DNA of 27,472 bases from a virus, in the IMG/VR virus record IMGVR_UViG_3300034104_004615, positions 1 to 27,472 of that record; one strand, 5' to 3'. A program made the translations under genes and the position numbers. The notes beneath the pieces are model-generated. The model was not told where the DNA came from. It ran no database searches and saw nothing but the letters and a program-made list of their open reading frames with translations. This document shows positions 8,312 to 12,230 of the stretch, one piece after another. Position 1 is the first letter of the stretch, and each line of letters starts with the position of its first letter.

Positions 8312-8483
8312 CGACATCACCGAGCACTTCGCCGAGCGTGCGGCCATTGCCGAGCACGACGGCGGCTTGTCGCGGCGGGTCGCGGAGTATCAAGCGGCAC
8401 GGGCGACGCGGGAAGAGTTCGGCCGCTTGACGGACGAGATCGACAGGCAGATGAGGGAGACGAGAGGCATTGTCAACGGTTGA
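8301..8483 (+). CDS. small acidic helical protein
   Basis: ATG 8301 overlaps the previous gene by 11 bp. The 60-residue product MSDDDITEHFAERAAIAEHD... is acidic, charged and helical (VAEYQAARATREEFGRLTDEIDRQMRETRG). I recognise no family. The promoter-like element of leader 1 begins inside its last codons. Confidence 0.6.
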   Translation: MSDDDITEHFAERAAIAEHDGGLSRRVAEYQAARATREEFGRLTDEIDRQMRETRGIVNG

Positions 8484-8497
8484 CAGTGCGGTAACAT
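8470..8497 (+). promoter_or_regulatory. promoter-like element of leader 1
   Basis: TTGTCA (8470-8475) and TAACAT (8492-8497) are spaced by 16 bp, an acceptable sigma70 pair. The segment aligns base by base with 11008-11036 (TTGnnA, AC, GGTTGACAG, five variable bases, TA). It also contains the perfect inverted repeat GTCAAC-G-GTTGAC (8472-8484), a possible operator. It would drive the helicase-methyltransferase pair. Confidence 0.5.
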
Positions 8498-8506
8498 TTT
8501 AGAAGC

Positions 8507-8594
8507 CGTAGCGGGCTACCAACAACACAACCACCGGCGGTGCCTTCGTGCCTATCTAGGCTGGCCCGCTACGCCGCGCCGCCGGTGGCTTTTT
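8507..8594 (+). promoter_or_regulatory. leader 1: interleaved A-B-A'-B' inverted repeats plus T-run
   Basis: Four perfect 10-base arms occur in interleaved order. CGTAGCGGGC (8507-8516) pairs with GCCCGCTACG (8564-8573), and CCACCGGCGG (8531-8540) pairs with CCGCCGGTGG (8579-8588), followed by T5 (8590-8594). A small GCCT-ATCT-AGGC hairpin lies between. The two long stems are mutually exclusive unless they form an H-type pseudoknot. The second stem plus T-run resembles an intrinsic terminator, so this may be an attenuator controlling the helicase gene that starts 9 bases later. Confidence 0.7.
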
Positions 8595-8603
8595 GGTGTT
8601 TTC

Positions 8604-10001
8604 ATGGATTACGAACAGTTCATCCGATCGAAGGTGCGATCGGCAAGGCCGTTAGGCTTTGAGGTTGCGGTTAGCGAGCTTCCGAAAGCTCTCAAGGGCT
8701 GGCAAGCCAAATGCGTACAGTGGTCGCTACAGCGTGGCCGAGCGGCTTTGTTTGAGGATACCGGCCTAGGTAAGACGATACAGCAACTAGCCTGGGCGGA
8801 CGCGGTTTGCAAACGATCGCGGCGGCCGGTTGTCATTCATACGCCAGTTGGCATTCGGGCCCAAACAAAACGAGAGGCCGAAAAATTTGGCATCGAGACG
8901 CCAATTGCTGTGGTCGATGAGCGGGCCGAAATTGTCGACGGGATTAACCTGGTCAATTACGAAAAGCTTCACAAGTTTGACGCTTCGATTTGGTCAGGTG
9001 TAGTGCTTGACGAATCGCAGATACTTAAAAATTTCACCGGGAAGATCAAGCAAGAGTTGATCGACTCATATCGCGAAACGCCCTACCGATTGGCATGTAC
9101 CGCAACACCGGCACCCAACGACCACAAAGAACTGGGTAACCACGCCGATTTCTTGGGAGTCATGCCATCAAACGAAATGCTGTCGCGTTGGTTTATCAAC
9201 GACACCATGAAGGCAGGTGGCTACCGGCTAAAGAAGCACGCTCAAAAGGACTTTTGGCGATGGGTAACCTCGTGGGCCGTTTGTTTGTCGCGTCCGTCTG
9301 ATCTTGGCGGAAGTGACGACGGCTATATATTGCCACCGCTGACCGTTGAGCGGCACATTGTGAGCGTTGCCTATGATGGCGTTGCCGATGGCTTTCTATT
9401 TGACGTCGAAGGGATTTCGGCGACAAACATCCACGAAGAAAAGCGGCGGACAAACACCGAACGAGCTAAGCGAGTTGCGGAGATTGTCCGTGAGTCAGAG
9501 AGGCCGGCGATTGTTTGGTGCTACACCGATTACGAATCTTCGGAGTTGATGAAGCATGTCGACGGGGCTGTTGAGGTTCGCGGATCGATGCCGGAGAAGA
9601 AAAAGCAGGATCTACTTTTGGGCTTTGCTGAAGGGCAGTTTCCGGTGCTTGTGACTAAGCCGTCGATTGCTGGCGTCGGGCTAAACTTTCAGGTTTGCAA
9701 TACGCAAGTATTCGCGTCGCTTTCGTTTTCGTTTGAAGAGTATTATCAGGCCGTTCGAAGGTCTTGGAGATTTGGTCAAACGCGGCCCGTGAAGGTTCAC
9801 ATCATCGGCAGCGATGCAGACGCGAACATCGAAAAGAGCATCGCTCGAAAGGGTGCCGATCACGGTTTGATGCAAGCCTCGATGGCGGAAGTTGTGAGGC
9901 AGTTTGGCTTGGGAAATCAAGCCGAGTTGATGCGGGTCGGTTTATCGGCGTCGGCGGTTCCGACGATTCCTAGTTTCTTAAAATCAAAGGCAGGTGTATG
10001 A
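8604..10001 (+). CDS. SNF2-type superfamily 2 helicase
   Basis: The 465-residue protein carries SF2 helicase motifs: Q-tip region LKGWQAKCVQWSL, Walker A EDTGLGKT (51-58), motif II LDESQ (135-139, DESQ replacing DEAH), and motif III CTATPAPND (165-173). In the C-terminal RecA-like lobe, AIVWCYTDYESSELM, LVTKPSIAGVGLNFQVCNTQVF and YQAVRRSWRFGQTRPVKVHII form motifs IV-VI with the arginine finger, typical of compact phage SNF2 proteins. It should be an ATP-driven DNA translocase in replication, repair or packaging preparation. It overlaps the methyltransferase gene by 8 bp; this pairing recurs in phages and suggests joint action on DNA. Confidence 0.9.
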   Translation: MDYEQFIRSKVRSARPLGFEVAVSELPKALKGWQAKCVQWSLQRGRAALFEDTGLGKTIQQLAWADAVCKRSRRPVVIHTPVGIRAQTKREAEKFGIETPIAVVDERAEIVDGINLVNYEKLHKFDASIWSGVVLDESQILKNFTGKIKQELIDSYRETPYRLACTATPAPNDHKELGNHADFLGVMPSNEMLSRWFINDTMKAGGYRLKKHAQKDFWRWVTSWAVCLSRPSDLGGSDDGYILPPLTVERHIVSVAYDGVADGFLFDVEGISATNIHEEKRRTNTERAKRVAEIVRESERPAIVWCYTDYESSELMKHVDGAVEVRGSMPEKKKQDLLLGFAEGQFPVLVTKPSIAGVGLNFQVCNTQVFASLSFSFEEYYQAVRRSWRFGQTRPVKVHIIGSDADANIEKSIARKGADHGLMQASMAEVVRQFGLGNQAELMRVGLSASAVPTIPSFLKSKAGV

Positions 10002-11007: not shown

Positions 11008-11036
11008 TTGCGAACAGGTTGACAGATTGTTATAGT
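11008..11036 (+). promoter_or_regulatory. promoter of leader 2
   Basis: TTGCGA (11008-11013) and TATAGT (11031-11036) are separated by 17 bp, a good sigma70 -10 with a moderate -35. GGTTGACAG lies in the spacer at the same place as in the element at 8470-8497. It would transcribe leader 2 and the replication genes. Confidence 0.6.
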
Positions 11037-11047
11037 GTACGAAATAG

Positions 11048-11135
11048 GCTTGACCGGCCTACAAACCAAGCCGCTGCCCGGATTCATTCGCGTTCTGCGA
11101 TTGCCGGTCAAGCATCCGGGCAGCGGTGTTTTTTT
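11048..11135 (+). promoter_or_regulatory. leader 2: interleaved A-B-A'-B' inverted repeats plus T-run
   Basis: GCTTGACCGGC (11048-11058) pairs perfectly over 11 bp with GCCGGTCAAGC (11103-11113). CCGCTGCCCGGAT (11071-11083) pairs over 13 bp with ATCCGGGCAGCGG (11114-11126), then TG and T7 (11129-11135). The arms are interleaved as in leader 1 but with unrelated arm sequences, so topology, not sequence, is conserved. The second stem with T7 is a plausible terminator with a long loop; the first stem competes with it or pseudoknots through it. The initiator gene starts 10 bases after the T-run. Confidence 0.75.
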
Positions 11136-11144
11136 GGTAAAGCA

Positions 11145-12230
11145 ATGACCGATCCTCCTAAGATCGACTACCCAAAGCGGGATAAGTTTTTCGCCCACAA
11201 AGCCTTCCGCAAGATGCACAAATCGAGTGCGGCGGCGGACATGGGGCGGGATGCTTTTTGCTTGGTCGCCGTCGTGCTACACACCGAAGACGCGGCACGC
11301 TACCGAGGGCCGGTTCGGTTCTTTAACTCGCAACTGATGGAGACGCTTGGCTTCGCCAAATGGGAGACGTTTGACAAAGCTAGGAAGCGAGCTATCGACT
11401 CTGGTTGGCTTCAGTATCGAGGATGCGGCAAGCGAACCGCTGGCCTCTACTGGGTCACGGTTCCTGCTGACCTAGACGACATGGACGACTTGCCGATTGA
11501 AGAATCGATCGACTCACTATCCCCTAAGGCTGGATATAAAGAGGGGTATAAAGTGGGATATAAAGAGGGGTACGATCGTGGGATAATCGAGGGGATAAAT
11601 GGGGGTACGATCGGGGGACAATCGGGGGTACGACCGGGGGATAAACAGGGATACGATCAGGGGATAAACGGGGGTACGATCGGGGGACAAACAGGGGGAA
11701 CCATCTACCCTAGTCCTGTTCCTGATCCTATCCCTAGCCCTAACCCTAGCCCTGATCCTGATCCTAAAAATACATACGCGGCAGAGCCGCTAGCCTCTGT
11801 CTCTCAAAAGCGAACACGGCGTCCATCGGTTGCAATTGATCGACCCGAAGACATTTCCGAACACCACTGGCGAGACTGGACGGCGTGCCGACGCAAGCCG
11901 GTTACGGAATCCGTCCTGGTGCGAATCCGACGCGAAGCGGCCAAGGCTGGCATGTCTGCCGATGAGGCGATCCGGACTGCGGCGGAACGGCAATGGGAGG
12001 GCTTCCAAGCCGATTGGCTGAACAGCGACCGAACAGCGGCGGAGCGTAAGCCGTCGCAGCCGAAAACGTTTGCACAGATCCGGGAGGAAAATACCAAAGA
12101 TGTATTCAGACGATTCGAAGAATCTGGACAGCTCAAAGCTATTTTCGACGCTGTTAATGGGGCTTCTACAGTCCCACCAAGTGGAGGCGAGCGAGGCGAT
12201 GCTACAGGTTTACTTCTTGGCCCTGGCTGA
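11145..12230 (+). CDS. phage replication initiator (lambda O-like organisation)
   Basis: The 361-residue protein starts at ATG 11145 (the in-frame start at 11019 would run through the leader). The N-terminal winged-helix-like domain (FFAHKAFRKM... GPVRFFNSQLMETLGFAKWETFDKARKRAIDSGWLQYRG) resembles phage initiators. The middle is low-complexity: Gly-rich repeats (about 127-183) and a Pro-rich linker (YPSPVPDPIPSPNPSPDPDP). The C-terminus (HHWRDWTACRRKPVTESVLVRI... MSADEAIRTAAERQWEGFQADW) matches the helical tail common at the end of phage replication proteins. The Gly-rich part is encoded by iteron-like DNA, the lambda arrangement in which the origin lies inside the initiator gene. It overlaps the next gene by about 130 bp. 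Confidence 0.75.
   Translation: MTDPPKIDYPKRDKFFAHKAFRKMHKSSAAADMGRDAFCLVAVVLHTEDAARYRGPVRFFNSQLMETLGFAKWETFDKARKRAIDSGWLQYRGCGKRTAGLYWVTVPADLDDMDDLPIEESIDSLSPKAGYKEGYKVGYKEGYDRGIIEGINGGTIGGQSGVRPGDKQGYDQGINGGTIGGQTGGTIYPSPVPDPIPSPNPSPDPDPKNTYAAEPLASVSQKRTRRPSVAIDRPEDISEHHWRDWTACRRKPVTESVLVRIRREAAKAGMSADEAIRTAAERQWEGFQADWLNSDRTAAERKPSQPKTFAQIREENTKDVFRRFEESGQLKAIFDAVNGASTVPPSGGERGDATGLLLGPG
11532..11700 (+). repeat. iteron-like G-rich repeats, probable replication origin
   Basis: Five imperfect units of about 22-24 bp with the core GGGGTACGATC plus GGGGATAAAC lie between 11566 and 11700. They include a 31-bp repeat with one mismatch at 11591-11621 and 11660-11690. Before them, GGATATAAAGAGGGGTATAA and a similar unit form an A+T-richer run (11532-11568). 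The + strand carries many G4-G5 runs, and the following stretch (11707-11766) is C-rich with CCCTA repeats. Iterons plus an easily melted segment inside an initiator gene match the lambda ori plan. Confidence 0.6.

Follow-up and report, generated by a model that had tools for sequence, protein, structure and literature searches.

What function do two interleaved pairs of complementary arms serve directly in front of two early genes of a phage? The window analyzed here covers all 27,472 bp of an IMG/VR virus record. A preliminary description had reported that, at positions 11048 to 11135, arms A and A' (11 bp) and B and B' (13 bp) follow each other in the order A-B-A'-B' and are succeeded by T7, and that the same topology occurs a second time nearby. 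The letters agreed with this exactly, since A pairs with A' at 11/11 positions and B with B' at 13/13 in leader 2, while leader 1 (8507 to 8594) carries a 10-bp A/A' and a 10-bp B/B' pair in the same order, followed by T5. As had also been claimed, both leaders span 88 bases from the start of A through the end of the T-run, and their arm letters are wholly different. When both strands of the window were scanned for interleaved arms that match perfectly over 9 bp or more, span at most 110 bases and are followed by a T5, only these two leaders passed. None of 100 dinucleotide shuffles of the window gave any site, in line with the earlier statement that a chance origin is unlikely.

Table 1. Positions of the two leaders, their parts and the adjoining genes in the window
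Feature	Position	Strand	Remarks
Operator-like palindrome TTGTCAACGGTTGACA	8470-8485	+	Overlaps the -35 of leader 1
-10-like hexamer TAACAT (TAAGAT in most relatives)	8492-8497	+	Predicted RNA start ~8504
Leader 1	8507-8594	+	A 8507-8516, B 8531-8540, P3 8550-8561, A' 8564-8573, B' 8579-8588, T5 8590-8594
SNF2-type helicase gene behind leader 1	8604-10001	+	PF00176, PF00271
Operator-like imperfect palindrome TTGCGAACAGGTTGACA (TTGTCAACAGGTTGACAA in relative L006)	11008-11024	+	Overlaps the -35 region of leader 2; same motif at leader 1
-10-like hexamer TATAGT, preceded by TG	11031-11036	+	17 bases after TTGCGA (11008)
P1, local 5' hairpin UAGGC..GCCUA	11045-11061	+	Loop is the core of arm A
Arm A GCTTGACCGGC, 5' strand of the proposed antiterminator helix A/A'	11048-11058	+	11/11 with A'
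Linker between A and B	11059-11070	+	A/C-rich, G-poor, unstructured; common to the leader class
Arm B CCGCTGCCCGGAT, 5' strand of the terminator	11071-11083	+	13/13 with B'
P3, small hairpin within the terminator loop	11088-11100	+	Covaries in relatives
Arm A'	11103-11113	+	Pairs with A
Arm B', 3' strand of the terminator	11114-11126	+	Directly adjoins A'
T7 run of the intrinsic terminator	11129-11135	+	TG between B' and T7
Lambda O-like replication initiator gene behind leader 2	11145-12230	+	361 aa; phrog_678, E 8.7e-11

The two leaders resemble each other in more than arm order. Both sit between genes of the same direction, have a start codon shortly past the T-run and contain a P1 hairpin with the core of A as its loop, an A/C-rich linker and a P3 hairpin in the terminator loop. 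In both, a promoter-like site, with the -10-like hexamer 16 to 17 bases past a TTG-type -35, places the predicted start within a few bases of A (~11043 for leader 2), and arm A is predicted to lie at or near the 5' end of the RNA. The stretch TATAGTGTACGAAAT at the -10 region of leader 2 was conserved in all variants of this leader, and the two leaders share a palindrome, TTGTCAAC-GTTGACA, that overlaps their -35; at the two operator-like sites of Table 1 it takes the form TTGTCAAC-N1-2-GTTGACAA. This shared palindrome is probably the operator of one regulator acting on both early promoters. At the other end of leader 2, B/B' followed by TG and T7 forms the GC-rich stem and U-run of an intrinsic (Rho-independent) terminator.

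Two further regions of the window deserve mention. Inside the O-like replication gene, at ~11525 to 11690, short iteron-like direct repeats of the GGGGTACGATCGGGGGATAAA type resemble the replication-origin iterons known from lambda O. A candidate third leader at ~366 to 480 (A GCCGAATC, 407 to 414) was rejected, as arm B is missing from relative L408 and the stem can be read as a single long hairpin; what the region holds is a TTGACA promoter-like site, a long stem and T5, before an endonuclease gene at 494. In L402, downstream of a homologue of the window's open reading frame at 73 to 369, a tRNA-like sequence (GGTTCGATTCCTGCC T-arm) behind a TTGACA site occupies the place of this candidate.

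With the helicase and Rep proteins as queries, many near relatives were retrieved. The preliminary description had named absence of the topology from close relatives as a result that would count against it; the topology was kept there. Leader 2 occurred in five distinct sequences, and over the 24 pairs of the crossed structure 97.5% of the cells in this five-variant alignment were paired. Changes on both sides of a pair were found in 12/24 pairs, 4/11 in helix A and 8/13 in helix B, a level of covariation reached by none of 500 shuffles, and when the partner columns were slid by 1 to 3 positions, double changes fell to 0 to 1. Since compensatory changes affect both helices and no shuffle matched them, A/A' and B/B' of leader 2 are RNA pairings under selection, as judged from the alignment. 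P1 and P3 covary as well: the P1 stem forms in every leader-2 variant, with covarying pairs, and P3 stems across relatives read GCGA/UCGC, GUGG/CCAC and GCGCA/UGCGC. A comparison of L004 with L096 showed leader cores that differ at ~40% of positions (23 to 26 of 40 identical) between near-identical promoters and Rep N-termini that are 99% identical; all A and B helix pairs were kept except the outermost A pair. The replication-gene N-terminal domain shared by L004 and L096 is of the GRIRTIKPEFF type, and other relatives carry a different one. The idea that the arms of leader 2 go together with the N-terminal domain of Rep was dropped, given that L004 and L096 combine the same N-terminus with different arms, and one arm set was moreover found with different downstream proteins. 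The arms of leader 1 were constant among close relatives, where only P3 varied, with compensation; covariation in leader 1 thus supports P3 only. As to hosts, planctomycete MAG contigs carry helicases related to that of the window, and the replication protein gave weak, stop-interrupted matches in only 2 of 392 planctomycete genomes.

The topology also recurs with unrelated arms. We curated 19 such leaders, mostly from distant phages, and since they were picked by eye after scans, the boundary of the class is soft. They often directly precede a SNF2-type helicase gene or a lambda O-like replication gene: L198, a contig attributed to a deltaproteobacterial MAG, and also L263 and L292 have unrelated arms ahead of the same helicase gene, and L439/L440, L447 and L470 have them ahead of O-like rep genes; L423 also fits, as judged by eye. 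Other places were found in L031, L032, L198 (second site), L335, L255, L320, L283, L392 and L398. TTGAC-like hexamers lie 33 to 39 bases before A in L335, L198 (two), L255, L031, L032 and L292, and T4 to T8 stand behind B/B' in the other curated instances, often after 1 to 3 other bases. The linkers between A and B of the curated leaders contain 15% G where 28% is expected (p ~1e-9), as if they were bound to stay unpaired. In L398 (5115 to 5230) and L292 (9654 to 9790), a copy of arm A stands right before the start codon (AACCACAACCC and GCCATGAAAGG, respectively), and A' could there cover the ribosome-binding region also; as a general trait such pairing was rejected, being significant in these two leaders and not in the 17 others. 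The tR' leader of phage lambda (L413, 44696 to 44790) holds a weak interleaved pair, GCAGGC/GCCTGC around AATCCCGAAAC/GTTTCGGGATT, which is possibly due to chance.

A strict scan of 1.72 Mb gave 10 real sites versus 0 and 1 in controls, and a scan of 2.19 Mb with looser cuts gave 7 versus 2, 4 and 0, some of the real sites being iteron arrays. Such arrays (L202, L289 and L225) and AT-rich hits in L129 mimic interleaving and were set aside. A duplex-energy scan with bulges allowed returned 9,111 loose hits, real sequences equaling shuffled ones, and was replaced by an ungapped test, the cleanest measure of enrichment, in which the upstream arm alone was shuffled for 121 non-redundant, long-loop, terminator-like hairpins. 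A loop-complementary upstream arm scoring at least 23 points was found in 21/121 real cases versus 1, 2, 4 and 6 shuffled ones, and at 25 points or more in 12 versus 0, 0, 0 and 2; reversed upstream arms gave 7 and 4. Since the loci were chosen mainly by helicase or Rep similarity, these scans yield no rate for phages in general. Covariation of both leader-2 helices, recurrence with unrelated arms in distant phages and enrichment of the upstream arm together lend good support to the earlier proposal of a conserved regulatory device; its further suggestions, sensing by a phage protein and timing of the replication genes, are conjecture.

How could such a device work? In nested-model computations of the competition between the two helices, RNAs ending at A' formed A/A' with a mean pair probability of 0.91 to 1.00 in 18/19 curated leaders (0.47 in L470), so that the alternative helix forms first, and upon addition of B', B/B' reached at least 0.78 in 17/19. 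The exceptions were L398b (0.51) and L031 (0.00), the nested fold of the latter retaining A/A' even with B' present. A and A' do not overlap B and B', unlike a classical antiterminator, which shares nucleotides with its terminator. Taking the folding results together with the position of B/B' and U4 to U8 a few bases ahead of a start codon, which is the anatomy of an intrinsic terminator, we favor, with moderate confidence, the reading that every leader acts in cis as a transcription attenuator and forms the 5' end of an early phage transcript. RNA polymerase would start within a few bases of A, as the promoter-like site suggests, and transcribe in turn A, the A/C-rich linker, B, a spacer often holding a small hairpin, A', B' and the U-tract. 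A' would emerge from the polymerase ahead of B' and pair with A, closing a loop around B and adjoining B'. Because A/A' would enclose B and abut B', the terminator could not close before the polymerase clears the U-tract, and the replication gene would be read, readthrough presumably being the early outcome. If A were instead unavailable, whether sequestered in P1 or occupied by a protein or a second RNA, B/B' would form and transcription would stop after ~90 nt. In both leaders of the window, A/A' would be weakened by P1, which may be a natural point for a signal to act; alternatively, polymerase speed alone may matter. A search of the leaders for a conserved sensor domain found none.

Since the competing helices have no shared strand, exclusion would have to come from their crossing. 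A/A' would close a loop that contains B at a time when the polymerase presumably still holds the 3' end of B', and mutual exclusion of the two helices is probably steric or topological. The gap between A' and B' is 0 to 8 nt in 15/19 curated leaders (10 to 27 nt in L032, L439, L263 and L447), and beside A helices of 7 to 12 bp such short gaps strain the simultaneous formation of both full helices. Alternatively, both may form together as a strained pseudoknot of the H type; leader 2 shows interleaved strands and covariation of both helices, and the wider gaps of L032, L439, L263 and L447 count against exclusion.

Other readings assign the conserved pairs a different role. The terminated RNA of ~85 to 90 nt could itself be the product, a trans-acting small RNA whose 5' arm A folds into its own terminator loop as a pseudoknot, with the gene fed by readthrough. 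Promoter, ~90 nt and terminator are the anatomy of a small RNA, a short free end with A at the extreme 5' terminus could thread into the loop, and the diverged L004 and L096 cores with their kept pairs are what diversifying selection on pairing specificity would be expected to leave; the Gifsy-1 prophage RNA IsrK exists both as a terminated small RNA and as a readthrough mRNA (PMC4825925). In a self-regulating form, A and A' would pair with nascent like leaders and favor termination, giving early-gene shut-off or copy control. Against this, the arms of leader 1 do not diversify, no trans target outside the leader came to light in passing, and since the start codon lies within tens of bases past the T-run in most cases, a role in cis is simpler. 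Nor is prophage immunity indicated, since seven related contigs, possibly fragments, yielded no integrase. We therefore regard a small RNA as unlikely. Somewhat further down the scale we place a combination in which a widespread, sequence-independent switch works by topological exclusion, the terminated ~90-nt leaders also shut off early genes by feedback in trans through pairing of A in one molecule with A' in a second, and the arms diversify against cross-regulation between related phages.

A protein might also read the leader, with A/A' as the recognition structure for an N- or Q-like antiterminator acting near the promoter. Lambdoid late genes have the order promoter, leader, terminator and gene, the weak pair of the lambda tR' leader is interleaved too, and the likeness of the two leaders of one phage in shape and not in letters would suit a reader of shape. 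However, the lambda A arm is just 6 bp and is not at the RNA 5' end, no antitermination protein was found among the window proteins scanned, and unrelated phages keep the topology only, their loops and arms differing in letters, so that a protein would find little to read, which makes this reading distinctly improbable. A small-molecule riboswitch with a pseudoknotted aptamer would share the pairing of a 5' hairpin loop with a downstream strand beside the terminator, and P1, P3 and the linker do recur across leader-2 variants; yet no conserved unpaired core, such as would bind a ligand, is common to leaders 1 and 2 or the distant instances, whose arms and loops turn over freely, and even at permissive settings no Rfam family matched the leaders, bar one chance-level snoRNA match. 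There is accordingly very little to be said for a riboswitch. Least credible of all is that plain terminators insulate the genes from upstream transcription and that A/A' is accidental: the placement between same-direction genes would fit, but this reading is contradicted by the covariation of four A/A' pairs in leader 2 and by the enrichment of upstream-arm complementarity over shuffles, and A/A' recurs at predicted transcript 5' ends.

The same layout written in different letters in unrelated phages suggests an on/off switch for early genes that has evolved repeatedly. If the attenuator reading is true, crossed, non-overlapping helices would decide between stop and go, a simple design rule seemingly reached by evolution repeatedly, and many uncultivated phages would control helicase and replication-initiator genes by a small RNA device that topology alone defines. 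With no letters conserved, such a device would be invisible to Rfam-like searches, and we found no description of the A-B-A'-B' leader topology in the open-licence literature.

In classical transcription attenuators, both of the trp type and in the antisense-controlled leaders of pT181 and pIP501, one strand is common to antiterminator and terminator. The leaders described here resemble them in having competing helices in a 5' leader and an intrinsic terminator directly ahead of the gene. In contrast, A/A' and B/B' cross without having a base in common. A leader peptide is not apparent, and the minus strand near 11135 shows no antisense promoter-like site; lacking the shared strand, the leaders would be a variant of their own and not a member of that class. 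Phage early transcription is likewise controlled at the RNA level near the promoter in phage P4, where a separate CI RNA pairs with leader sites to give immunity, and in HK022, whose put RNAs act on the polymerase and have conserved letters. The present leaders share neither topology nor letters with these systems, and no separate RNA like CI was found. For IsrK, we know of no interleaved architecture. Its locus in Gifsy-1 is similar in combining a phage promoter, a terminated short RNA and a readthrough mRNA, but the target of IsrK, a trans-acting RNA, is translation of the long isoform (PMC4825925). In the fluoride (crcB) riboswitch, as proposed for the leaders, the loop of a 5' hairpin pairs cotranscriptionally with a strand further downstream, and the resulting pseudoknot competes with the terminator hairpin; its pseudoknot strand overlaps the terminator base, whereas that of the leaders adjoins it (PMC11077080). 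The leaders further differ in having no conserved ligand core and in that the two pseudoknot strands flank the terminator's 5' strand. In logic, the leaders come nearest to attenuators of the shared-strand kind and to transcriptional riboswitches with a pseudoknot, of which the fluoride switch is one; in setting, they come nearest to IsrK.
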